DNA from: an uncultured Verrucomicrobiota bacterium
Lineage (GTDB): Bacteria > Verrucomicrobiota > Verrucomicrobiia > Palsa-1439
Reading direction: 5' to 3'
Assembly: GCA_903825435.1 (NCBI GenBank)
Contig: CAIKAP010000116.1
Coordinates: 1 to 33,722, forward strand
Length of the DNA stretch: 33,722 nucleotides
Shown piece by piece: positions 1 through 33,718 of the stretch (the stretch's first letter is position 1; each line of letters opens with the position of its first letter). A program made the translations under genes and the position numbers. Under the pieces are notes generated by a model that ran no database searches, was not told the origin of the DNA, and saw only the letters and a program-made list of their open reading frames with translations.

Positions 1-288
1 CGGGCCGACGCCAAGGGCGGAGCATGGTCGCCCATCGTAAAAGTAAGCCGAAGGGCCTCTGGAAAAACTGTTTTCACACCTTCGGCTCGCCATCTCCACT
101 CCAATCGCCATCCACTAAAAGAAGTTTTGCAAGAACGTCGGATGTTGGAGCATTTTGCGAATGTATTTCCACCCGGCGACACCTGCGTGCCTCGTATTGG
201 CCCCGCCGGACATTTCGTCAAAATTCCTTTTGAAATACATGTTGCAGAAAGCATTGAAATACAAGTGGATGGATGGTGGGCCCGGTAG
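1..288 (+). CDS. Possible 3' end of a CDS entering from the left; open frame 1 ending at TAG 286-288 inside the att/tRNA fragment
   Basis: Frame 1 is open from base 1: ...EVLQERRMLEHFANVFPPGDTCVPRIGPAGHFVKIPFEIHVAESIEIQVDGWWAR*. No start visible and no family recognised. Confidence 0.3.
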   Translation, partial: RADAKGGAWSPIVKVSRRASGKTVFTPSARHLHSNRHPLKEVLQERRMLEHFANVFPPGDTCVPRIGPAGHFVKIPFEIHVAESIEIQVDGWWAR

Positions 289-319
289 GATTCGAACCTA
301 CGACCAAAGGATTATGAGT
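274..319 (-). repeat. attL-like copy: displaced 3' fragment of the tRNA gene
   Basis: tggtgggcccggtaggattcgaacctacgaccaaaggattatgagt, identical to 10944-10989; diverges immediately at 273 and 320. Confidence 0.93.
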
Positions 320-390: not shown

Positions 391-1677
391 TTACGCCGCT
401 TCGTGTACAACAGGGGACGCGGTTGCACAAGGCATAACCGGCGGGCACGGTGGTATCACTAAAGGTATCACGGCACGGCCACCGGTAGCCCGCAACTGAA
501 TCCGCTTGGCTTGCGCTAACAGGTGGTCTTGCCGCACGTCGCCATACACCGCCGCAATGATTGCCGGGCCGCTCTTGTCGCCGATCAAAGCGGCAATCTC
601 CGCGTCGGTAAGGCCGCTCTGCCGCGCTTGCGTGACGAAGAAGCTGCGCAGCCCGTGCGGGGTGACGTGCCCGATCCCCAGCGCCAAGCAAGCCGCCGTT
701 AAACGCCGATTAACGGCGCATTGTTCCCGGCTTTGTTCCGCGTTCAACGGGCTGGGGAAAAGCAGGTGACTCCGGGCCCGCGTCTGCATCCCGCGCAACA
801 GTTGCACCAAGTCCGGCAGCATCGGCACAAACGGATTGCAGCCGCGTTTCAGGCGTTGGACGTGCAAGACGCCTTCGCGCCAGTCCACCGCTTCCCAATC
901 CATCGCCAGCGCCTCGCCGATGCGCAGCCCGGTGAAGGCGAGGAAACAAGCCAAGTCCGCAAGATCGTCGTTGCCGCGCATCCGCAGCCAACGCTCGATT
1001 GCGGCCAAGCCGTCCGGCGTCGGGGCGACTTCCCGGCAATGCCGAATCTTCGTTGTGTCGTGGTAGCTCTCGCGTCCGGCCAGCGGATTCGCTTTGATAC
1101 TGCCGCGCCGTTTCGCCAGCCGTAGGGCGTTGCTCAGCACGATCAATTCAAGGTCAACGCTCCGGTCACCGCCCTTGTTGCGCTGGTTGACCGTCTCGCC
1201 GTCTTTGCGCGTGTACGTAGTGACGTAGCCGCCCGCCGTCCGCCATTCCCGGTAATCGTCGCAATCGGCCAGCGTCAACGACACCGCCGCCCGGTTGCCG
1301 AAGAAGCCGCGCAGCGGGCGCATACAAACGACTTCCCGCCGCAAGGTCAACGGCGCTTTCGCCTTCATTTTCGGGGTGGGGCAACCGGCTTCAACGTAGG
1401 CGTCCAATACCGCGCCCACCGTCAGACGGTTGCGCGCCAGCGCCGCCACCGGCAATTCGATTCCGTGTGACTTCAAGGCTTGTTGGTTGCGCCATTCCTT
1501 GAAGATTTTCCGCGCCGTCGCCGGGTCATTCGTGCCGGTACTGCGAAACGTCCGCTTACCGTCAATCGTGACGCGGGCAAAGATCGTACCGCCGCGCCGG
1601 TACAAACCGGACCCGATGCGCTCCGGCGTTTGCTGCGCGACGGTGCGCGCCGTCTCGCCTTCGTTGCCGGTAATCAT
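391..1677 (-). CDS. int: Tyrosine recombinase/integrase
   Basis: 428 aa. C-terminal motifs FLAFTGLRIGEALAMDW and HGLRSFFVTQARQSGLTDAEIAALIGDKSGPAIIAAVYGDV; adjacent to attL. Confidence 0.9.
   Translation of the reverse strand: MITGNEGETARTVAQQTPERIGSGLYRRGGTIFARVTIDGKRTFRSTGTNDPATARKIFKEWRNQQALKSHGIELPVAALARNRLTVGAVLDAYVEAGCPTPKMKAKAPLTLRREVVCMRPLRGFFGNRAAVSLTLADCDDYREWRTAGGYVTTYTRKDGETVNQRNKGGDRSVDLELIVLSNALRLAKRRGSIKANPLAGRESYHDTTKIRHCREVAPTPDGLAAIERWLRMRGNDDLADLACFLAFTGLRIGEALAMDWEAVDWREGVLHVQRLKRGCNPFVPMLPDLVQLLRGMQTRARSHLLFPSPLNAEQSREQCAVNRRLTAACLALGIGHVTPHGLRSFFVTQARQSGLTDAEIAALIGDKSGPAIIAAVYGDVRQDHLLAQAKRIQLRATGGRAVIPLVIPPCPPVMPCATASPVVHEAA
449..474 (+). repeat. Left copy of terminal repeat (putative integrase arm-type site)
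   Basis: GGTGGTATCACTAAAGGTATCACGGC, 23/26 match in the same orientation to 10850-10875. Confidence 0.6.
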
Positions 1678-1844
1678 GGTCGCGCCTCTTTCTTCATGTA
1701 CGCCGCCAACGCCTTTTCGATCACCCAGCTTCGCGGGCGCTCATTCTTGGCGCAGTAGGCTTCCAACTTCGTAAACGTTTCGGGCGACAGTGAGATATTG
1801 AATTTGTTCACCGTGCCCAGCGGACTTCGTGGCTTTCGTGTCAT
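1674..1844 (-). CDS. Ribbon-helix-helix (CopG-like) small protein
   Basis: MTRKPRSPLGTVNKFNISLSPETFTKLEAYCAKNERPRSWVIEKALAAYMKKEARP. AAAGGAGA upstream; stop overlaps the int start (ATGA). Confidence 0.65.
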   Translation of the reverse strand: MTRKPRSPLGTVNKFNISLSPETFTKLEAYCAKNERPRSWVIEKALAAYMKKEARP

Positions 1845-1878: not shown

Positions 1879-2550
1879 TTAGCCACCGTTTGCAAGTCCA
1901 TTCTCGCCGCGTCGCCGAAAACTCTGCCAATGGAACACCAGCACACCGGCACCGGCAATCCTGTCGGCAATGCTGTCGCCGACACACGGCGCAAATTCGT
2001 CGGGATCGTGGTTGCTGATAAGGATCGTGTCGAGACTGTCATCATGCCGCTGGCAAACGATGTTGGTGAGGTTGCGCCGCTCCCATTCCGTTTCGTTGCG
2101 CTCGCCGATTTCGTCAACGACCAGCAACCGCACGCGCAACACGCTGGCCAGCGTCTTGCGCTCTGATTCAGTGGCCTTGTCATCCCAGCCGCGTTTGATG
2201 TTTTCAGAGAGAAACGCCGCCCGCCAATACCGGGCAGAGTGCCCTTGTAGGCACACATGCCGCCCCGCGCACGTCGCCAGTTGCGTCTTGCCGGTGCCGC
2301 GTCCACCGATAAACGCCAGCGTGACGCCCGCACCGTCCAACCGGGCTTTGACGTGTTGCCAGTACCGTTTCCAGTCGGCATTTTCAGGTTGAACTTTGCC
2401 CGCGCCCCAGCCGTCCGCCCACGTCACGAGCCGGGCAGGGAAGTCGGCGCGCTGGTAACTGTCCACGCACTGCCGCCGCCATTGCTGGTAATCCCATTCC
2501 GACACGTCGCCGCGTCCGGGGATCGTGAATCGCTTGGCAGGCTCGCTCAT
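1879..2550 (-). CDS. DnaC/IstB-like AAA+ ATPase, probable helicase loader
   Basis: Walker A GGRGTGKT, Walker B LLVVDEIGER; directly downstream of the replisome-organizer-like gene with a 4-nt overlap. Confidence 0.8.
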   Translation of the reverse strand: MSEPAKRFTIPGRGDVSEWDYQQWRRQCVDSYQRADFPARLVTWADGWGAGKVQPENADWKRYWQHVKARLDGAGVTLAFIGGRGTGKTQLATCAGRHVCLQGHSARYWRAAFLSENIKRGWDDKATESERKTLASVLRVRLLVVDEIGERNETEWERRNLTNIVCQRHDDSLDTILISNHDPDEFAPCVGDSIADRIAGAGVLVFHWQSFRRRGENGLANGG

Positions 2551-3161
2551 TTGAAAATCTGGTCACGACCCAAAGAGACGGGCGGGCGCGCCTTCCTTCC
2601 GGTTCTTGTGGGTGTTGTTGTGTTCTTGTTTGTGGCCGAATTTCGCGGGGCGGGATTGCCGCCGCTGGTCAATTTGCTGGCCGCAGTCGGGGCAGGGCGG
2701 GCGATTGCGCCAGTGTTTTCAGGGCTTCCCGCGCTGCGCTTGCTGGTCAATTCGCTGTCCGCTTTTGGCGTGTTTGCTGGCCGCTCGCTGGCCGCTTGCT
2801 GGTCAAGTAGCTGGCCGCTCGCTTGGTACTGCCGCCAATTTCGGATTGTAACGATTGAACCTTTGACGGTGCGTAGCTGGTCAATTTGCTGGTCGCTGCG
2901 CATCGTGCGCAACAGCCGCCGCACTTTGGATTCGTCAACGCCCGTCGCCTCTGCAATCGCATGGCGTCCGGTGAACAGTTGACCGGGCTGCAAGGTGACT
3001 TCGCGCCCGGCAACGCGCAGCCGGTAAGGCTTGTGCGTCGCCTTCGTCAACAGGTACACCCACACCGACACCCACGCGGGATCGCGGGAAAGCGGATTCT
3101 CCCAAAGGCGACGGTACAGCTTAACCCAGCCGTCGCCGCCGTCGTTGGCGGGCGGACTCAC
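2547..3161 (-). CDS. Phage replisome organizer / lambda-O-like replication initiator
   Basis: N-terminus DGWVKLYRRLWENPLSR...GREVTLQPGQLFTGRHAIAEATGVDESKVRRLLRTMR...GSIVTIRNWRQYQ is typical of the winged-helix replisome organizer family; low-complexity C-terminal half. Confidence 0.75.
   Translation of the reverse strand: MSPPANDGGDGWVKLYRRLWENPLSRDPAWVSVWVYLLTKATHKPYRLRVAGREVTLQPGQLFTGRHAIAEATGVDESKVRRLLRTMRSDQQIDQLRTVKGSIVTIRNWRQYQASGQLLDQQAASERPANTPKADSELTSKRSAGSPENTGAIARPAPTAASKLTSGGNPAPRNSATNKNTTTPTRTGRKARPPVSLGRDQIFK
2664..2896 (+). repeat. Four iteron-like 21-mers inside the replisome-organizer ORF
   Basis: GCTGGTCAATTTGCTGGCCGC-like units at 2664, 2742, 2798 and 2876 (spacings 78, 56, 78), plus extra GCTGG boxes at 2776 and 2787. 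Confidence 0.65.
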
Positions 3162-3364
3162 AAGCCGCCCCTCAGCGTCTTACCGCGTTGCTGGAAATGC
3201 GCGGCACGGTCGCACACGATCCGACGCGCCGCCGCTTCCACGTCGGCAAGGAATGACTGCGAGACGCGCCAGAATTTCGGCGGGCGATTCATCCGGGCTT
3301 GCCGGGCGTTGGCCGTGTCCAACGCCAACCGGCGAACGGCGCTTTGATTCAACAGGTGTTTCAC
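3158..3364 (-). CDS. Hypothetical small protein (GTG start overlapping the upstream stop)
   Basis: VKHLLNQSAVRRLALDTANARQARMNRPPKFWRVSQSFLADVEAAARRIVCDRAAHFQQRGKTLRGGL; 4-nt overlaps with both neighbours. Confidence 0.55.
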   Translation of the reverse strand: MKHLLNQSAVRRLALDTANARQARMNRPPKFWRVSQSFLADVEAAARRIVCDRAAHFQQRGKTLRGGL

Positions 3365-3576
3365 GCCGCCCCGCTTTCGCCGTGCCGCGCCAACCACTCC
3401 CAAAAAACGGACTCACGCACGCGGCAGACACCGGCAACGCGGATCACCGGCAACCCGTGTTCCTGTCGCCAGCGCCACACCGTGCCGCGTGAAACGCTGG
3501 CGAGGGTTTGAATCTCGCCGAGAGTTAGCAACCGGTCCGGCGCGGTTGCCGTTGGTGCATTCTGTGGCGCGCTCAC
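3361..3576 (-). CDS. AlpA/excisionase-type helix-turn-helix protein
   Basis: LLTLGEIQTLASVSRGTVWRWRQEHGLPVIRVAGVCRVRESVFWEWLARH, a MerR/AlpA-like fold signature. Confidence 0.7.
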   Translation of the reverse strand: MSAPQNAPTATAPDRLLTLGEIQTLASVSRGTVWRWRQEHGLPVIRVAGVCRVRESVFWEWLARHGESGAA

Positions 3577-3776
3577 GGTGTCACCCGGTCGAAAATGGTT
3601 TCCGGTTCAACACCCAGCGCCCGCGCCAGCGTCAGCTTTTGCCCGTAAGTCGCCTCACGGTCGCCGTGTTCAATGGCGCTCAGCACGCTGGGGGCAATCC
3701 CAGCCGCCGCCGCCAACTTGTACGCGGCCAGCCCGCGCCGTCGCCGTTCAAGTAGAATCTTCTCCCCGTCGCTCAT
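3573..3776 (-). CDS. XRE-family transcriptional regulator
   Basis: MSDGEKILLERRRRGLAAYKLAAAAGIAPSVLSAIEHGDREATYGQKLTLARALGVEPETIF. Confidence 0.8.
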   Translation of the reverse strand: MSDGEKILLERRRRGLAAYKLAAAAGIAPSVLSAIEHGDREATYGQKLTLARALGVEPETIFDRVTP

Positions 3777-4029
3777 GTTCGTTTTCTCCTTCGCAACGCG
3801 GGGCAAAATTTTTTCGGGGCGGTGTCTCCGCTCGATTCTTTGCACCGCGTTTGCGGTTTTTGTTTCACTTCGGGCGTGAGAATAGGAGAAACGCCGAAAC
3901 CGCATAAGACGCGGAAAGCTCGGCAGGAATGACGGCGCGGCCACTAATCACCAACGCAATTCACGGCGCGGCCATGAATTGCCAGCCCGATTGATGGCCT
4001 ACCCGCGAAACACCGGAACGTTTCGCGGG

Positions 4030-5070
4030 TTACTTCTCACGCCGCCACGAAAGCGGCTTTTCATCGGCGGGGAGAAACGGAAACAGTTGGTGAAGCCGCT
4101 CCAACACTTCGCGGCGGGCGTCGCGCCACTTGGTAGGATCGCCCCACTTGTCGGAAGCAAATTGCTTCGTCTTGTGAATCGGCGCGCACTCGGCAAGCTC
4201 TGGACGGCGGGCGTTGCCGAGAATCTCAACCGGCGTGTAACGTGAGAGAAGGCGCATTGCTGCCAAGCGCGTGAGATCGGCGCGCACGTCGCGCGGCTTA
4301 TGCCCGCGCCGGTCCGGTGCCGGTGCCGTGGGCGGGCGCAACTTCGGCAACACCTTGCGGAAGTAGTCGGCAATTGATTCGTTGGTAAACTCATTCCACG
4401 CGATTTCTAACAACACCGTTTCGGCATCGCCAATGAAGAATCCGGGGCGCATTTCTGGCGAGTCTGGCAGATCGGGCGCGCCGGGATTTGCTCGCAAATA
4501 TCCTTCGGCGTTCTTGTAAAGGTAACGCTTTTCATATTCCTTCCACTGCCGGAGTTGTTCACCCGCCCAGGTGTCACCCCGGCGGACAATCTCCCTAGCC
4601 ATGCGCCAGTCTGCTAGATTTACCGGCGCAGGTCGAAAGTGTTCCCTGAAGCGTGGCCCGCGTGCCCGCTCCTTTTTTTCGTCATCGGCAAGCGATTGCC
4701 ACGGATCGGGAAAGCTGCCGGTAATCGGCGGGGCGTCCGGGACATCGCTACGGCGTCCACGGCCAAAACAGAAGCCTCTCACGAAAACGTCAGCCGGATA
4801 TCCGATGCTCTGAATCTTGTCGAGTTTGCCGCACCAGTCCGGGCGCGTTTGCTTTGCAAGGTCAACTTTGTCGCCCGCTTCAACGTCGCGCCTTACGCAC
4901 TCGTAACCGTCGCGCAAGGCGTCACGGATGAAAGCGGACTCCCGCGCATATTCCCAATAACAGCACGCCACAAGCTCCGCTTGCGTCACGCCGTCAAAAT
5001 TCCATTCTCGCCAGTCGAGTGCGCGCCCGCGCTCGCTGGGGACTTTCCGGGCTTGTGATTCTGTCGCCAT
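4030..5070 (-). CDS. Hypothetical protein, paralogue A of a tandem pair
   Basis: 346 aa. Shares with the next gene LDWxxWNFDxVTxxELxACCYWEYARES, ITGxFPDxWQSL and ADLTRLAAMRxLSRYTPVEIxGNxRRPxLAECAPIHKTKQFASDKWGDPTKWRDARRE. Confidence 0.8.
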   Translation of the reverse strand: MATESQARKVPSERGRALDWREWNFDGVTQAELVACCYWEYARESAFIRDALRDGYECVRRDVEAGDKVDLAKQTRPDWCGKLDKIQSIGYPADVFVRGFCFGRGRRSDVPDAPPITGSFPDPWQSLADDEKKERARGPRFREHFRPAPVNLADWRMAREIVRRGDTWAGEQLRQWKEYEKRYLYKNAEGYLRANPGAPDLPDSPEMRPGFFIGDAETVLLEIAWNEFTNESIADYFRKVLPKLRPPTAPAPDRRGHKPRDVRADLTRLAAMRLLSRYTPVEILGNARRPELAECAPIHKTKQFASDKWGDPTKWRDARREVLERLHQLFPFLPADEKPLSWRREK

Positions 5071-5079
5071 TTGCCAGCC

Positions 5080-6126
5080 TCAGCTTTCTCGCCGCCATGA
5101 AAGCGGTTTTTCGTCGGTGGGGAGAAACGGAAACATTTCACGAAACCGCTCTGCCGCTTCGCGGCGGGCGTCGCGCCACTTGGTAGGATCACCCCACTTG
5201 TCGGAAGCAAATTGCTTCGTCTTGTGAATCGGCGCGCACTCGGCAAGTGGTGGACGGCGTGTGTTGCCGATAATTTCCACCGGGGTATAACGTGACAAAA
5301 TCCGCATTGCAGCCAACCGCGTGAGATCGGCGCGCAAGTCTTTCGGCTTGTGCCCGCGCCCGTCCGGTTTCGGAATATCGGGCGGGCGGTTTGGTCCTAC
5401 CCACTTGCGAAACGCTTCAACAATTTCGTCGTTGGTGAAGTCCGCCCACTCGATTTTCACTGATAAACATTCCGCGCCGCCTTCCCAAAACACAGAGGCG
5501 GTAGGCCGGTAGTCGGGATACTTGCCTTGTCGCCGCAACGTGCCTTCACCGACACCGGGATTGTCCCGGTGCAGCTTGTCACGTATGGCGATAAAATCGC
5601 GCAAACTCCCCTGTGCCCGTTCAACGAGCATTTCAGCCGTCAACAAACTTCCGTCGCGGTCAAAGGCTCGCAAGGGAATAACTTCACGGTCGCTGCGGAT
5701 GTGCGAACGGTGTGCGCGTTCCGCTACGGTGAGAGATTGCCAGGCATCGGGAAAGTTTCCGGTTATCGGCGGAGCGTCCGGGTGTCTGTAATTCGGCTTG
5801 TCGGGATCGTCGCTTTGAGTAACCGGGTCACGATCAAACGCACAGCCGCAAAGAAAAACCTCCGAGTGATACGGGATCGGCTCTTGAATCCGGCACAATG
5901 CCGCGTCGAGTTCGCCCGCTTCTGGAATGTCCGTGTGTCCGCCCGCTTTCCACCAGTCCCGATACCGCCGCAACGTGTCCCGGATGAAAGTTGACTCCCG
6001 CGCATACTCCCAATAGCAACACGCCAGAAGCTCCGGCTCGGTTACACGGTCAAAATTCCAGTCTTTCCAGTCGAGTGCGCGCCCGCGCTCGCTGGGAACA
6101 CTCCCGGCTTGTGGTTTTGTCGGCAC
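5080..6126 (-). CDS. Hypothetical protein, paralogue B of a tandem pair
   Basis: 348 aa. Conserved N- and C-terminal blocks with paralogue A, divergent middle; nearly identical DNA over part of the 3' end. Confidence 0.8.
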   Translation of the reverse strand: MPTKPQAGSVPSERGRALDWKDWNFDRVTEPELLACCYWEYARESTFIRDTLRRYRDWWKAGGHTDIPEAGELDAALCRIQEPIPYHSEVFLCGCAFDRDPVTQSDDPDKPNYRHPDAPPITGNFPDAWQSLTVAERAHRSHIRSDREVIPLRAFDRDGSLLTAEMLVERAQGSLRDFIAIRDKLHRDNPGVGEGTLRRQGKYPDYRPTASVFWEGGAECLSVKIEWADFTNDEIVEAFRKWVGPNRPPDIPKPDGRGHKPKDLRADLTRLAAMRILSRYTPVEIIGNTRRPPLAECAPIHKTKQFASDKWGDPTKWRDARREAAERFREMFPFLPTDEKPLSWRRES

Positions 6127-6250: not shown

Positions 6251-9007
6251 TCAACCGGGCTTCGTCGCCGCTCCGCTGGTTTGACCGGCGGCGCGGTCGT
6301 GGTTCAACTTCAAAAGGCGTTCAAGAATTTCGTCGTCAGTCAGGGTGACCGGCCAGCCGTAGGCCGCGCACACGGCGGCGTCAAGTTTCGCGTGCGCGTT
6401 GGCCAGCCACGTCGCTTTACCGGCGGCAAGTTTGTTGTAAAGGGCGGTCAGGGTTTTGGCGTCGCCGTTCGGATCGCTGAGGACGTTGTTGCGCTGGTCG
6501 GTGAGTTCCTTCGCAGCGGCGGCGATAGCGTCAACGTGTCGGCGCTGTTCAACGGTCAAGGCGTCCAGCGGTGTGCGCGGCGGCCACGGAAACGGGAACG
6601 TTTCAAAGCAGGTCGTCGGCGTGTAGCGCGGGCGTGTCTCCAACCGTGTGCCAAGTTTCAACGCCCAAACCTCATGCGCTCGTGAGTGCAGGACGCCGAA
6701 AAAGTAATCGTCGTCACGAGCAAAGACATACGTTGAAGTGTCCGGCAACCAATCCGAAGGCAGCCAAAGAAAAAGCCGGTGCTTGGAAACACGGGGAGTG
6801 CAGATCATCCGTGACAAGCCTTTTACGCCTTCGCGCATATCCTCACCACTGCGGCGGTGCATCCACCAGAATTTCCGCAACCGTTCATCCCGGTTCTGCT
6901 GCCGTTCCTGCTGAACGTGCTCTTTCAGATACTCAAAGGGCGCTTCAAACTGTGCCACGGCGGTTTCATCTTCCAAACCGGCAAAGTCGATAATCCAAAC
7001 CTCTTTCGGATTCTTCAGCATCATGTCGGCATTCGTCCACCGCCGGAGAACATCGGCGTTGGACTTTCCGTTGGGGTTTTGCTTACGAAGCATGTCCGCC
7101 GCTGTTTCCTTGCTGATTTCAAAAGAGCCGCCTTTCTCGACGGGGCGGAAACAGAAGTTCGCATTTTCCGGTAATGCCATTGCTTGCGTGAGGTCACCGG
7201 CTGCCGTCAAGTTGGCGTTGATTGTCGGCACCGGCTGGCCGTCGAGGGTGCGCGTCTGGTCGCTGCCGTTGTCGAATCCAATCATGGAAATGTGGACGTT
7301 TGCGCCGTCGAGAATCCAATCCCGGTCGCTGACGGCAAAGAAGATGTCACCGGTAGCCTTGATGCGTTTGAGGACTTCCCGGTTAGCGCCGCCGCGAATG
7401 CCTTGCGTTGCCAGCAATCCCGCCCGTTGGCACTTGCCGTCCGCGATAAGCTCGCGTGCCTTTTCAAACCAGTAGCAACAGTAATCGGCGGTCTTTGGCA
7501 CGCGGTCGCTGAATTTTGCGTGCAGCCTGTCAACGTAGGCGTCCGTGAGCTCCCGGCGTTGGAAGGCTGAACCAAGAAACGGCGGGTTGCTGATAATGAA
7601 ATCCACGTCCGGCCAGTCGGTGAAAAGAGCGTCGGCTTGCAGGAAATTCTTGTCGAGTTGCAACAGAATCGGCTCTTTGGGTGAGCCGTAGCCGTGGGCG
7701 CGCAGCCATTGAATGTAACCGATTTGCACGGTGACTTGCGCGAGGCTGTGGGCGTAGGTGTTGATTTCGATCAAGTAAAGCTGTCCCGGATTCACGCCCG
7801 GAAAATACGGGGTAAAACTGTGCGCGCCGAGGTAGTCGTTGACTTCTTTTTCGAGGTCGAGAATTTTTTGCAGCGTGACGTAGAGGAAGTTACCGGAGCC
7901 GCCCGCAGAGTCCAACACGCGCAGACGTTTGAGGCGTTCAAGGAAGGCGGTCAGAAGTTTTTCAGCGGCGGCGCGGTTTTTCTTGGCGTCAGTGGCAAGC
8001 AAGGCGTCCGCCTTGCCGCGCACGTCCGCCCACTCGCGGCGCAGCGGTGTCATAATCACCGGTTCAACAATCGTTTCAATGTCGGCGCGCCCGGTGTACT
8101 GCGCGCCAAGCTGGGAACGCTGTTGCGGGTCAATGCCACGGGTAAAGAGCGTGCCGAAAATTGAGGCGTCAACGGTGTTCCATTCCAACGCGGCAGCGCC
8201 GGCAACGCGCTCGATTTCGTCGCGGGTGAGGTCAAGGACGGTCGCATCGGCAAAGAGGTTGCCGTTAAAATGTTTGATGATGTCCGCGCCAAACTCGCCG
8301 CCGTTGGCCATTGCGCCAAAGAGTTGCGCCACCATGCGACTAAAACGCGGCGGATCGTTGCGCCCCTTGTTGACAATCTCGGCAAAGAGTCCACGCGGCA
8401 GCAAGTCCACGTCTTCAGCAAAGAGACAGAAGACCAACCGAATGAGGTAGTGGGCGACGGCGTGCGGTTCAAGGCCGCGCTTGCCCATCATACCGGCCAG
8501 CTCGCCAAGCTGCGCGGCGGCGTGCTCAGTAATGGCGCGGCTCGGCTCGCCGGGTTTGAGCTTGGCGGGATCGTGGAAGACGGCGCGAAGAATTTCGAGG
8601 TTGCGCGGGGCGTCGAGTGCGGCCAGCGGAATTTCAAACGTCAGCGGCTTGGTGTTGGTAAAGTTGGTGTGGACAATCAGCCGGTCCATGTCGCACACGA
8701 CCAGCAACGGCGGATTTTCGAGGTCTTCCCGGTAAAGCAAAAGCTGGTCGTAAGCGGCGGCGAGGTCTTTGTGTTTGCCCTTGTACTCCCAGCCGAAGAA
8801 ATCTTTTTTCCACACGTCCGCCCAGCCGTCGCCGCCGCCGTGCTTGGCCGCGCCGCGCTCGAAAGTGAAGGTGTCGCCGGTCTTGTCCACGTCAATCGGC
8901 TGGGGATGTCCCAGCACGCCGCACAGATCGTTGAAATGCGATTGCGCGGCGGCGCGCTCGGTCAATTCAACGTTGCGCCAATTGGCGATAAATTCGGCAG
9001 CGGTCAT
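6251..9007 (-). CDS. MmeI-like (Type IIL) fused restriction endonuclease / N6-adenine methyltransferase
   Basis: N-terminal nuclease-like FFGWEYKGKHKDLAAAYDQLLLYREDLENPPLLVVCDMDR (E-x-K); SAM motif LDSAGGSGNFLYVTL; catalytic motif ISNPPFLGS; C-terminal specificity-like region. Start taken at MTAAEFIANW. Confidence 0.85.
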   Translation of the reverse strand: MTAAEFIANWRNVELTERAAAQSHFNDLCGVLGHPQPIDVDKTGDTFTFERGAAKHGGGDGWADVWKKDFFGWEYKGKHKDLAAAYDQLLLYREDLENPPLLVVCDMDRLIVHTNFTNTKPLTFEIPLAALDAPRNLEILRAVFHDPAKLKPGEPSRAITEHAAAQLGELAGMMGKRGLEPHAVAHYLIRLVFCLFAEDVDLLPRGLFAEIVNKGRNDPPRFSRMVAQLFGAMANGGEFGADIIKHFNGNLFADATVLDLTRDEIERVAGAAALEWNTVDASIFGTLFTRGIDPQQRSQLGAQYTGRADIETIVEPVIMTPLRREWADVRGKADALLATDAKKNRAAAEKLLTAFLERLKRLRVLDSAGGSGNFLYVTLQKILDLEKEVNDYLGAHSFTPYFPGVNPGQLYLIEINTYAHSLAQVTVQIGYIQWLRAHGYGSPKEPILLQLDKNFLQADALFTDWPDVDFIISNPPFLGSAFQRRELTDAYVDRLHAKFSDRVPKTADYCCYWFEKARELIADGKCQRAGLLATQGIRGGANREVLKRIKATGDIFFAVSDRDWILDGANVHISMIGFDNGSDQTRTLDGQPVPTINANLTAAGDLTQAMALPENANFCFRPVEKGGSFEISKETAADMLRKQNPNGKSNADVLRRWTNADMMLKNPKEVWIIDFAGLEDETAVAQFEAPFEYLKEHVQQERQQNRDERLRKFWWMHRRSGEDMREGVKGLSRMICTPRVSKHRLFLWLPSDWLPDTSTYVFARDDDYFFGVLHSRAHEVWALKLGTRLETRPRYTPTTCFETFPFPWPPRTPLDALTVEQRRHVDAIAAAAKELTDQRNNVLSDPNGDAKTLTALYNKLAAGKATWLANAHAKLDAAVCAAYGWPVTLTDDEILERLLKLNHDRAAGQTSGAATKPG

Positions 9008-9065
9008 GGCCGCGCATCCTACCGCCAAGCCCACAAACCGGCAAGGCTAGGCGTCAACGCACAGC

Positions 9066-9214: not shown

Positions 9215-9649
9215 TCAGGGTTTGACCTTCAAGCCTTCGGCTTCGGCAAGCCGCCGCTGATTCTTGTCAAACGTCAGAAACACTTTTGCCCCCAGCGTCA
9301 ACGCGGTTGCCACGTGCACAACGTCAAGCGCGCTGTAGCCGTGCCGGACCGTGTGGGTGTTGCTCAGGCGCTCTGCCGTCGCGTGGACTTGTTCCCATTC
9401 GACAGGCGGGATCACCACGCGCCCGGCGTCAACGTCCGCGTCGAAAGCGGCCAGTGCCGCCACTGCCACGCCACCGGGCATGTCTTTGCGAAAGGCCGCT
9501 GCGCGGATCGCGTTGCACGCCTCAAACCGCAACAGGCTGGCGGCGTGGATTGGCTCTTGCATCGTCGCCGCGTGCGCGCTGGCCAAGTCCGCGTTGGCTT
9601 GCGGAACGTACAAGGCGCAAAGGAAACTGGCATCGGGGTAGGCGTTCAC
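9215..9649 (-). CDS. PIN-domain toxin (VapC-like)
   Basis: MNAYPDASFLCALYVPQANADLA... ALDVVHVATALTLGAKVFLTFDKNQRRLAEAEGL; paired with an upstream antitoxin by a 4-nt overlap. Confidence 0.85.
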   Translation of the reverse strand: MNAYPDASFLCALYVPQANADLASAHAATMQEPIHAASLLRFEACNAIRAAAFRKDMPGGVAVAALAAFDADVDAGRVVIPPVEWEQVHATAERLSNTHTVRHGYSALDVVHVATALTLGAKVFLTFDKNQRRLAEAEGLKVKP

Positions 9650-9900
9650 GAGAAACGCCGATCCTCAGCGTCTTTCATCCGTTTTACCGCCGCGTCACTC
9701 ATCACAAAGCCGCCGCTGTACGCCCGCGCCCGCGCCGCGAAGTCCGGCATTTGCACTTTGCCGGGCTTGGCTGGCACGTCCGGCACCAAGCGTGCCACTG
9801 GCCGCCCGCGTCGCGTCAAGCGCACCGTGCCGCCGTGTTCCACGATCCGCAACACGCCGGTCGGGTTGTGCATCAATTCCCGCATAGTGATAGTTGTCAT
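9646..9900 (-). CDS. Phd/YefM-type antitoxin
   Basis: MTTITMRELMHNPTGVLRIVEHGGTVRLTRRGRPVARLVPDVPAKPGKVQMPDFAARARAYSGGF. Confidence 0.82.
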   Translation of the reverse strand: MTTITMRELMHNPTGVLRIVEHGGTVRLTRRGRPVARLVPDVPAKPGKVQMPDFAARARAYSGGFVMSDAAVKRMKDAEDRRFS

Positions 9901-10403
9901 GTCCAACACCATGTCCAACAATGCCGCAAAAGTCAAGTCGCCGCCGTCCGCGAACAAGGCAACGGCAACGCGCCCCGGCAATTCGCGCCCGTCTTGCGCG
10001 GTCAACGTCACACCGCTGCCGCGCTCCGGTAACGCCGTCAGGGAATTGCGAACACGTCAACGCCGTGCCGCCGCCGCCGCTATCGCGCCGCGTCAACGCG
10101 GGCAGGTAATTCGCCCGCGTCGCCACCGGTGCGAGTCGCACCGCTGGCGCGCTTCGGCAACGCGCCGCTGTTGCCCCACCCACCAGCGCGCATAACGGGC
10201 GGGCTTGTAGCCACGCCCCTTTGCGCTCCCCCCGCCCCGCATTGGTCGCTTCGCTCCCTCGCTCCCTTGCGCGGTTGCCCCGCGCTACTGGCGCGCACGC
10301 GCCGCAGACGGCGCGCCGCGCCTCAGTTTGTCGCACGCGCTGCCGCGTTGCGAGGATCACCATTGCCACGGCCAGCCAACGACACGGCAACGACTCCGGC
10401 TAG

Positions 10404-10943: not shown

Positions 10944-11019
10944 TGGTGGGCCCGGTAGGATTCGAACCTACGACCAAAGGATTATGAGTCCTCCGCTCTA
11001 ACCACTGAGCTACAGGCCC
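10944..11019 (-). tRNA. tRNA with CAU anticodon, most like tRNA-Ile2 (elongator Met not excluded)
   Basis: GGGCCTGTAGCTCAGTGGTTAGAGCGGAGGACTCATAATCCTTTGGTCGTAGGTTCGAATCCTACCGGGCCCACCA, 76 nt with encoded CCA; acceptor GGGCCTG/CGGGCCC; CTCATAA loop followed by TTTGGTCG resembles E. coli tRNA-Ile2. Confidence 0.95.
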
Positions 11020-19427: not shown

Positions 19428-20768
19428 ATGGGTGAAGGTAAAAAACAGGCTCTGCGAGTTAGTTTTGACGGACGTTTGCAGTTGGAATTTCATGGCGCGA
19501 ATATCACCTCCGATGCAGGCCTACTGGTGTACCGCGAACTGGATGACGCGCTGGAACTGACCACAAGGAGTGGTGGCCTGTTGGATGATTGGCGCACTGG
19601 GAAGAACACGCAACACTCACTGGTGGCGCTGCTGCGCCAGTCAATCTTTAGTCGTCTGGCGGGATACGAAGACACCAATGACGCGGAACGTCTCGCGATT
19701 GATCCCACCATGCGACAGGTCGTTGGTGGGCGAGCCAGCGAACGCAGCGCCGCCTCCACCAGCCAAATGAGTCGCTTCGAGACGGAGGTGTTGACGCAGC
19801 CGAGGAATCTGGCGGAGTTGACACGGCTGTCGGGAATCTGGATTGAGGAGTTACGGGAACGCCAATCCCTGCAGGAACTGATTCTGGACATGGATAGTTC
19901 GGTCAGTGAAACTTATGGCGAACAAGAAGGCACGGCGTACAACGGGCATTTCGACTGTACCTGCTACCATCCACTGTTCTGCTTCAATCAATTCGGCGAC
20001 GTGGAACGCGCCCTGTTGCGGGCAGGCAATGTCCATAGTGCTAAAGATTGGCGGAGCGTGTTGGAACCGATAGTGGCCCGCTATCGTCGCCAGAAGTTGC
20101 CACGCTACTTCCGAGCGGATGCGGCCTTTGCCAACCCGGAACTCTATGAGTTTCTGGAAGCCGAGGGCTACGAGTATGCCATCCGTCTGCCAGCCAATGA
20201 GGTGTTGCATCGAGAAATCGAGTCATTGTTGACTCGTCCGGTGGGGCGTCCCTCCAACGCGCCGGTGGTTTTGTATGCGGACTTTTTGTATCAGGCGCAG
20301 AGTTGGAAACGCACTCGCCGTGTGGTGGCGAAGGTGGAGTGGCACAAGGGCGAGTTGTTACCTCGCATTGGCTTCATCATCACCAACCTGACTCGGTCAG
20401 CGAAACAAGTAGTGCGGTTCTACAATCAACGTGGCACGGCTGAGCAGTGGATCAAGGAAGGCAAGAACGCCGTCAACTGGACCCGCTTGTCCTGTCACGG
20501 CTTTGCCGACAACCAAGTGAGATTGCAGCTATTTGTGTTGGCGTACAACTTGGGCAACTTTCTGCGTCAGGCCGTGCTGCCCAGAGCGGTGCGGCACTGG
20601 TCGCTGACGACGTTGAAGGAGAAACTCATCAAGATCGGCGCGAAGGTAGTGCGCCATGCGCGACAAGTGATCTTCCAGATGGCAGAGGTGGCAATTCCGC
20701 GTGAATTATTCAGAGCGATTCTGGAGCGGATTGTGCGGCTGAGGTTGCCGACAACGCGGACGGGTTGA
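19428..20768 (+). CDS. IS1380-family transposase
   Basis: FDGRLQLEFHGANITSDAGLLVYRELDDALELT...DMDSSVSETYGEQEGTAYNGHFDCTCYHPLFCFNQFGD...FRADAAFANPELYEFLEAEGYEYAIRLPAN. Confidence 0.9.
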   Translation: MGEGKKQALRVSFDGRLQLEFHGANITSDAGLLVYRELDDALELTTRSGGLLDDWRTGKNTQHSLVALLRQSIFSRLAGYEDTNDAERLAIDPTMRQVVGGRASERSAASTSQMSRFETEVLTQPRNLAELTRLSGIWIEELRERQSLQELILDMDSSVSETYGEQEGTAYNGHFDCTCYHPLFCFNQFGDVERALLRAGNVHSAKDWRSVLEPIVARYRRQKLPRYFRADAAFANPELYEFLEAEGYEYAIRLPANEVLHREIESLLTRPVGRPSNAPVVLYADFLYQAQSWKRTRRVVAKVEWHKGELLPRIGFIITNLTRSAKQVVRFYNQRGTAEQWIKEGKNAVNWTRLSCHGFADNQVRLQLFVLAYNLGNFLRQAVLPRAVRHWSLTTLKEKLIKIGAKVVRHARQVIFQMAEVAIPRELFRAILERIVRLRLPTTRTG

Positions 20769-32200: not shown

Positions 32201-33718
32201 CAGTCTATGGACTTAGCTCAACACTTTTCTTGAACTGTCTCTGGGTGCGAGGTGTCTGTGGAATATGCTAGCACGGCTCGTCAACATTGATCGCGATACG
32301 CCACTCCTTTTGCCACCCGCCTTGCGCGAGTGGATTCCCGCCGACCATCTCGCCCGCTACCTCCTCGATGCCGTCGAGAGCCTGCCACTGACCACGTTAC
32401 GCGTCAACGAACGGGGTGCCGGTGATGAGCAGTTTCCGCCTCGCATGCTGCTGGGGCTGGTGATCTACTGTTGCGCGACCGGCACCTTCAGTTCGCGGGC
32501 CATCGAACGCGCCACCTACACCGACGTGGCCGTGCGATTCCTCCCCGGCGACACCCATCCTGACCACGACACCATCTGTGAGTTTCGCCGCCAGAATGGG
32601 CCAGTGTTGGCGGAGAGCTTCGTGCAAGTGCTGGAACTGGCGCGGGAGTTGAAGTTGCTGAAGTTTGGGCAACTCACGCTGGCCGCCCACGGCACGAAAG
32701 TGTTGGCCAACGCCAGCAAACACAGCGCCGTCAGCTACCAGCGCGACGGCGAACAGATCGAACTGTTACGCCAAGAAGTGGACCAACTACTGGCCAAAGC
32801 GGAACAAGCCGACCGCGCCCCGTTGCAAGACGGCCTGACGATTCCTGCGGAGATTACCCGCCGCCGCGAGCGCCTCAGCAAGCTGCAAGCGGCGCGCACC
32901 GTGATCGAGGAACGCGCCCGCCATCGCGCGGCGCAGGAACAGCCGGTCTACGCGTCGAAACAAACGGACCGCGCCGGGCGGCGTGCGCGTGGCGAACTCG
33001 TGCGCGGACACGAGCCGCAACCGCCGTCGGCCACACCGGAACCCAAGGACCAATACAACTTTACCGATCCCCCCAGCCGCATCATGACAGCCGGCACCGG
33101 GCAGCATTTTGAGCAAGCCTACAACGCCCAAGCGGCCGTCGAGACGGACAGCCGGTTCATTGTGGCCGCGCGAGTGACCGACGCGCCCAACGATAAAGAA
33201 CAGTTGGTGCCGACGCTGCACGCGGTGGCGGCTCCGGTACGCGCGCAGGTGGTGGCGGTGGTGGAAGCCAACGCGGAACCCACGGTGTACGCAGCGGTCG
33301 AGAAAACGGGACATCATCGGCGTGTGGCCGACTTGGAACAGCGGCTGGAACCGCTGCCTCCGACAGCGGGGGCTGGCCCCGTGGAGCAAATGCGGTACCG
33401 GTTACAGACGGCAGCGGGGCGGGCACTGTATCGACTCCGACAGCAGACTGTAGAACCGGTCTTTGGGATCATCAAGGAGGTGCTGGGCTTTCGTCGATTC
33501 TTGCTGCGGGGACTGGCGGGAGCGGAGTCGGAATGGACGTTGGTGTGTCTGGCATACAACTTGCCCCGCTTACACCGCCTGTCAGTGGCGCCGGCTTGAA
33601 AAGTCGCCAAGCCGGAAGAATATCAGAGGCGTCGGTAAAAAAAACGAAATCGCAACCGCGCTGAACCGGTCGGAATTGTCAGAAGCGAAAAAAACATCAC
33701 GCTAAGTCCAACAGACTG
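32201..33718 (+). mobile_element. IS1182-like insertion sequence, complete, flanked by CTAG (32197-32200, 33719-33722)
   Basis: Left end CAGTCTATGGACTTAGC and reverse complement of right end CAGTCTGTTGGACTTAGC form terminal inverted repeats; identical CTAG flanks. Confidence 0.88.
32265..33599 (+). CDS. IS1182-family transposase
   Basis: LPPALREWIPADHLARYLLDAVESL...FPPRMLLGLVIYCCATGTFSSRAIERATYTDVAVRFLPGDTHPDHDTICEFRR...QAYNAQAAVETDSRFIVAARVTDAPNDKEQ. Confidence 0.93.
   Translation: MLARLVNIDRDTPLLLPPALREWIPADHLARYLLDAVESLPLTTLRVNERGAGDEQFPPRMLLGLVIYCCATGTFSSRAIERATYTDVAVRFLPGDTHPDHDTICEFRRQNGPVLAESFVQVLELARELKLLKFGQLTLAAHGTKVLANASKHSAVSYQRDGEQIELLRQEVDQLLAKAEQADRAPLQDGLTIPAEITRRRERLSKLQAARTVIEERARHRAAQEQPVYASKQTDRAGRRARGELVRGHEPQPPSATPEPKDQYNFTDPPSRIMTAGTGQHFEQAYNAQAAVETDSRFIVAARVTDAPNDKEQLVPTLHAVAAPVRAQVVAVVEANAEPTVYAAVEKTGHHRRVADLEQRLEPLPPTAGAGPVEQMRYRLQTAAGRALYRLRQQTVEPVFGIIKEVLGFRRFLLRGLAGAESEWTLVCLAYNLPRLHRLSVAPA

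Follow-up and report, generated by a model that had tools for sequence, protein, structure and literature searches.

The window analysed here, 33,722 nucleotides of contig CAIKAP010000116.1 from an uncultured Verrucomicrobiota bacterium, contains a 10.7-kb element that is integrated at a tRNA-Met gene and bounded by perfect 46-bp attachment repeats (Table 1). The initiator gene at the centre of this study belongs to this element, and its stop codon overlaps the start codon of the loader gene (ATGA). Also enclosed by the attachment repeats, besides the genes in Table 1, are a PIN/Phd-like pair, a restriction-modification enzyme of the MmeI type and two paralogues with no assigned function. We saw no capsid, packaging or relaxase genes between the repeats, so the element is a candidate for a satellite or an integrative element. 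In a sister genome, searched for an empty integration site, the tRNA segment and the rpoD segment are on separate contigs. The two paralogues (346 and 348 aa, 57% identical) stand in tandem on the minus strand at 4030-6126 and have no Pfam, PHROG or PADLOC match. Their relatives adjoin MmeI-like enzymes at two loci (L282 and L286) and lie on the same stretch as one at a third (L284), which suggests that they are partners of MmeI-type restriction systems that have so far gone unrecognised; the elements carrying such genes had neither an initiator of the window's type nor a comparable array. The element's MmeI-type enzyme is a single-chain restriction-methyltransferase carried as cargo (6251-9034, minus strand; PADLOC type IIG, 2e-264), and near the tRNA end a gene for a PIN-domain protein overlaps a Phd/YefM-like antitoxin gene (9215-10011, minus strand). 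Two transposase-like ORFs lie outside the element on the plus strand (19428-20768 and 32265-33599).

Table 1. Features of the integrated element and of the repeat array within its initiator gene (half-sites are named by their offset in bp from the first core).
Feature	Coordinates	Strand	Evidence or remark
Attachment repeat 1, 46 bp, tRNA-Met 3' part	274..319	.	perfect match to 10944-10989
Tyrosine integrase	391..1677	-	Pfam Phage_integrase 3.8e-15; phrog_1 1.2e-39
Small ribbon-helix-helix protein	1674..1844	-	Pfam RHH_1 2e-5; Arc-like phrog_3180
DnaC-like helicase loader	1879..2550	-	phrog_50 1e-31; IstB_IS21 7e-14
Initiator gene, 204 aa: winged helix and disordered, iteron-encoded linker	2547..3161	-	phrog_2514 1.4e-27, tblastn, AlphaFold2, alignment
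End motif GGCCACAAACAAGAAC with A/C-rich tail, weak candidate unwinding region	2604..2637	-	matches homologues' array end GACCACAAACAAGAATG
Half-site +224, GACCAGC	2664..2670	-	
Half-site +212, GGCCAGC	2676..2682	-	
Half-site +146, GACCAGC	2742..2748	-	
Half-site +134, GGACAGC (variant)	2754..2760	-	
Half-site +112, GGCCAGC	2776..2782	-	
Half-site +101, GGCCAGC	2787..2793	-	
Half-site +90, GACCAGC	2798..2804	-	
Half-site +78, GGCCAGC	2810..2816	-	
Winged-helix domain, residues 17-113	2823..3113	-	AlphaFold2 per-block pLDDT mostly above 90
Least stable stretch of the gene, alternative unwinding candidate	2836..2871	.	top 0.8% of the element's 36-bp windows
Half-site +12, GACCAGC	2876..2882	-	
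Half-site +0, GACCAGC	2888..2894	-	
R81 codon, predicted recognition helix	2919..2921	-	covaries with core base
Excisionase-like HTH protein	3361..3576	-	HTH_17 2e-7; phrog_66 8.5e-8
Repressor-like HTH_3 protein	3573..3944	-	Pfam 1.5e-7
Attachment repeat 2, inside intact tRNA-Met 10944-11019	10944..10989	.	perfect 46-bp repeat

The initiator matches the PHROG 2514 family, annotated as "DnaD-like helicase loader", and more weakly an entry annotated as "replication initiation O-like". It reached the cut-off of no Pfam family; specifically, Phage_rep_O (PF04492) was absent from the Pfam matches at E<=0.1, and RepA_N gave no Pfam or NCBIfam match. AlphaFold2 models residues 17-113 with confidence as a winged helix and the remainder as disordered, with R81 in helix 77-89 and S102 in wing strand 102-106. 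The Foldseek matches are generic winged helices (TubR, CAP), none with an E-value below 0.001, and the RepA_N structure 4pt7 appears as a weak fold match at rank 45; a profile search of solved structures did not find a relative of the initiator. This prediction and the profile matches of the neighbouring loader (Table 1) agree with an earlier note on this DNA, which had read the two genes as a winged-helix replisome organizer followed by a DnaC-like ATPase. Beyond the linker, most homologues continue for about 100 aa into a C-terminal region that the window protein is missing, a point that counts against taking the array described below as an origin. This region is common in the family, not universal, and other short members measure 166-209 aa.

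Within the initiator gene, the earlier note had marked four copies of an 18-bp word as iterons. The four words are present at 2664, 2742, 2798 and 2876 with spacings of 78, 56 and 78 bp, and the repeats are real; the proposed unit was wrong, as each word consists of two neighbouring half-sites, the four words being the four core pairs spaced at 12 bp. What actually repeats is a direct unit of 11-12 bp whose core is G[A/G]CCAGC on the coding (minus) strand. Ten such cores lie within 2664-2894 on an 11-bp lattice, all on one strand and uniform in orientation throughout the array; one reads GGACAGC, and CCAGC is kept in the other nine. Successive cores start 12, 66, 12, 11, 11, 22, 12, 66 and 12 bp apart, each step equalling a multiple of 11 or exceeding one by a single base, and a period of 11.16 bp keeps the ten positions in phase (resultant 0.977). 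The GCTGG boxes that had been listed at 2776, 2787, 2798 and 2810 in steps of 11-12 bp share their coordinates with four of the half-site cores. As to reading frame, the core codon phases are 2, 2, 2, 2, 1, 0, 1, 1, 1 and 1, so that copies 1-2 of the word do differ in phase from copies 3-4, as had been claimed, whereas the array uses all three frames rather than two. A segmental duplication of the 78-bp module was discarded as an explanation because the two spacers match at 16 of 56 positions.

These repeats are far more frequent than base composition or coding would predict. The 18-bp word has seven matches at <=3 mismatches, a number reached in 0 of 100 dinucleotide shuffles (mean 0.82), and GCTGG[CT]C occurs nine times in 2660-2900 where 0.11 occurrences are expected from the rest of the window, with none on the opposite strand of that interval. 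The array could in principle be a by-product of codon bias and a low-complexity Q/S/T-rich linker, which is indeed predicted to be disordered and is rich in Q, S, A and T. We find this explanation scarcely credible, given that in 1000 synonymous-codon shuffles, which preserve both the protein and its codon usage, the null mean was 3.2 different-phase 8-mer pairs against 52 in the gene (p=0.001). This excludes the by-product at p of about 0.001 and speaks against a refuting condition named in the earlier note, namely that the repeats are no commoner than codon usage predicts. Of nine control genes taken from the window, eight gave p>=0.04 in the same test; since the MmeI-like control gene was mildly high (24 vs 8.8), the test is good, though imperfect if taken alone. 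A linker by-product is also at odds with the 11-bp step, which is no codon multiple and yet recurs family-wide, and with a core base that changes in concert across four elements, as described below.

To place the array in a wider context, we compared it with those of homologous genes. A tblastn search with the initiator returned 189 phage records, including Pseudomonas phage KLEP17-4 (1e-19), the O proteins of HK022, HK620 and Sf6, and staphylococcal and lactobacillus DnaD-like proteins. All annotated phage and plasmid homologues examined, except ctekg1, have an array with 11-bp spacing immediately behind the part that encodes the winged helix, and in the HK620 and Sf6 records a rep_origin is annotated at this same intragenic place. 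Among 69 distinct viral homologues, autocorrelation peaks at a lag of 11 bp in 61, with p<=0.01 for lag 11 in 46 and for different-phase repeats in 49. Single-protein scans of viral and genome contigs found no relative, and profile and alignment searches were needed; 93 related genomes held no relative beyond the window's own, and an alignment of 13 distant members offered no conserved stretch usable for a contig scan. A match in another genome (L022, G266) was rejected as a different type of initiator without an 11-bp array, and the array is likewise absent from L025, L026 and L033. Four further loci (L029, L030, L032 and L036) were left out of the comparison, as the ORF extracted from them was not the right one.

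The window and KLEP17-4 share the core offsets +0, +12, +78, +90, +101 and +112 with two further genomes from the same phylum as the window (G244 and G449). The words at these offsets differ: G[A/G]CCAGC in the window, GAACAGC in KLEP17-4, GAGCAAC in G244 and GCACAAC in G449. The variable core base (C, A, G and A, respectively) is the same throughout each element in all three codon phases, and words resemble one another more within an element than between elements at a given site (p=5e-5 by label shuffle). By this comparison, the words appear to have changed together at all sites of each element. Such concerted change is a stronger argument than the shared register, because the register is partly inherited via the aligned protein. 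The window array is looser than those of its relatives, with the +123 site lost or degenerate, a variant at +134 and 12-bp steps, and this too counts against an origin.

We then asked which residues of the protein follow the core base, using the 116 members whose core base could be called clearly (60 with A, 52 with C and 4 with G) and excluding the repeat-encoded columns. The most informative column corresponds to R81 of the window, in the predicted recognition helix, followed by S102 in the wing. Residue 81 is R or K in 47 of the 52 C-type members, mostly Q in A-type members and E in the four G-type members. On a tree built without the covarying columns, the core base changes at least 19 times, and Pagel's test of residue 81 against the core base gives a likelihood ratio of 54, or 58.5 with the best residue split. 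This is the highest value of the 28 columns tested (34 for the next column, lower for the other 26); the residue splits were chosen post hoc, and the ranking of columns therefore weighs more than the p-value. Of 17 non-overlapping, tree-independent pairs on the best tree, 14 change together, one changes in the opposite direction and two show no difference; only three of the independent pairs lie on well-supported branches, which counts against the reading. Exceptions to the pairing of R/K with C include HK022, HK620, Lrm1, ctekg1 and IME1364 among others, mainly in distant subfamilies (HK022, Gram-positive phages), and the window (R81, S102, core C) obeys it. On balance we favour the view that the family keeps its sites inside its own initiator gene, on an 11-bp lattice running through three codon phases, and that protein and sites coevolve by a code in which R/K at residue 81 goes with C (G on the other strand) and Q/E with A, residue 102 being a second determinant. 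If so, a change of one residue needs the same change at 6-10 sites, which would also alter the protein's own linker.

Homology, the conserved register, the concerted word change and the covariation of protein and DNA make an intragenic origin bound by its own product the best reading. We propose that 2664-2894 is very probably a binding-site array for the product of its own gene and the replication origin of the 10.7-kb element; binding, melting, helicase loading and actual use as an origin are what we infer from sequence. The winged helix of the initiator would bind the 11-bp-spaced half-sites, which share an orientation and a helical face, building a nucleoprotein array on its own coding DNA. 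This array may then open nearby DNA, where the DnaC-like ATPase would recruit the replicative helicase of the host once the element is excised or induced. As to the site of opening, the letters CACAAACAAGAA in the A/C-rich tail at 2604-2637 match the homologues' array end, and 2596-2631 is among the top 3% least stable windows, while the alternative candidate at 2836-2871 sits between the outlying core pair and the main array. No AT-rich tract stands out clearly beside the array, which counts against an origin.

Alternatively, the array was functional in an ancestor and the element no longer replicates; the degenerate +123 site, the variant at +134, the weak AT tract and the short protein would fit such decay. 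We consider this unlikely: the replication and integration ORFs are all open, the ATGA coupling and the 46-bp attachment repeat are perfect, and CCAGC persists in 9/10 cores. It is very unlikely, in our view, that the array serves mainly as an autoregulatory operator or partition-type site of the same winged-helix protein, with replication starting elsewhere. A protein bound within its own gene could repress the operon, and the partition protein TubR is among the top fold matches; against this, the homologues are annotated as replication proteins and have a rep_origin marked in the corresponding position, the adjacent gene encodes a helicase loader, and the element showed no TubZ/ParM-like gene.

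An intragenic origin bound by its own initiator has known counterparts. In lambda and Stx phages, the origin lies in the middle of gene O, with 4-6 iterons and an AT-rich tract, and the helicase-loader gene follows (PMC7466680). The lambda-O-like origin suggested in the earlier note is well supported in its outline, a position inside an O/DnaD-like initiator gene upstream of a DnaC-like loader; its lambda-type details are not, given the one-strand 11-bp direct half-sites, the weak AT tract and the lack of a Pfam Phage_rep_O match. Among named proteins, the O proteins of HK022, HK620 and Sf6 (gene 43) are the nearest relatives; they are homologous to the initiator (tblastn 9e-12 to 4e-9), and their genes carry 11-bp units (ACCAGCAGATT/ACCAGCAAATT or TTGTCCAACGG) just after the winged helix, as in the window. 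These phages differ in that a P22-gp12/DnaB-like P gene lies downstream and the protein measures about 300 aa; in the window the next gene encodes a DnaC-like loader, the initiator has 204 aa, and the array is more spread out, with additional 12-bp pairs. KLEP17-4, of the PHROG 2514 family, resembles the window in register and in the DnaC-like gene that follows, and differs in its word and its longer C-terminal region. A homologous initiator, head-to-tail 11-bp units after the winged helix and a loader gene downstream are traits that the window shares with the HK022/HK620/Sf6/KLEP17-4 group. The RepA (RepA_N) of PLE satellites is also a winged-helix initiator, with a DnaD-NTD-like fold and intergenic iterons with inverted sub-repeats (PMC7145576); it resembles the window in pairing such a protein with iterons on a satellite element, but the window array is intragenic and sequence homology was not found.

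Origins inside O genes are known; the family-wide lattice and the residue-base code are newer, and we found no description of either an 11-bp three-phase lattice or such a code in the open-access literature, with subscription literature outside the search. Our findings extend O/DnaD-like replication to a small, non-phage-like integrative element with restriction-modification and toxin-antitoxin genes, whose origin can thus be predicted and cloned. The family offers well over a hundred natural pairs of initiator and sites, each in a single reading unit, and with a conserved register and concerted words, the specificity of initiator for origin, and how it switches without killing the replicon, become directly testable. 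In G244, the locus (L021, 5567-9071, contig C162) has an integrase gene just after a tmRNA gene, then the homologous initiator gene with GAGCAAC words and then a replicative helicase gene, and is probably a prophage. In G449, the homologous initiator gene (L024, contig C188) contains at about 1820-1890 a perfect tandem array of 6 x GCACAACCACC, which is the cleanest model of the family.
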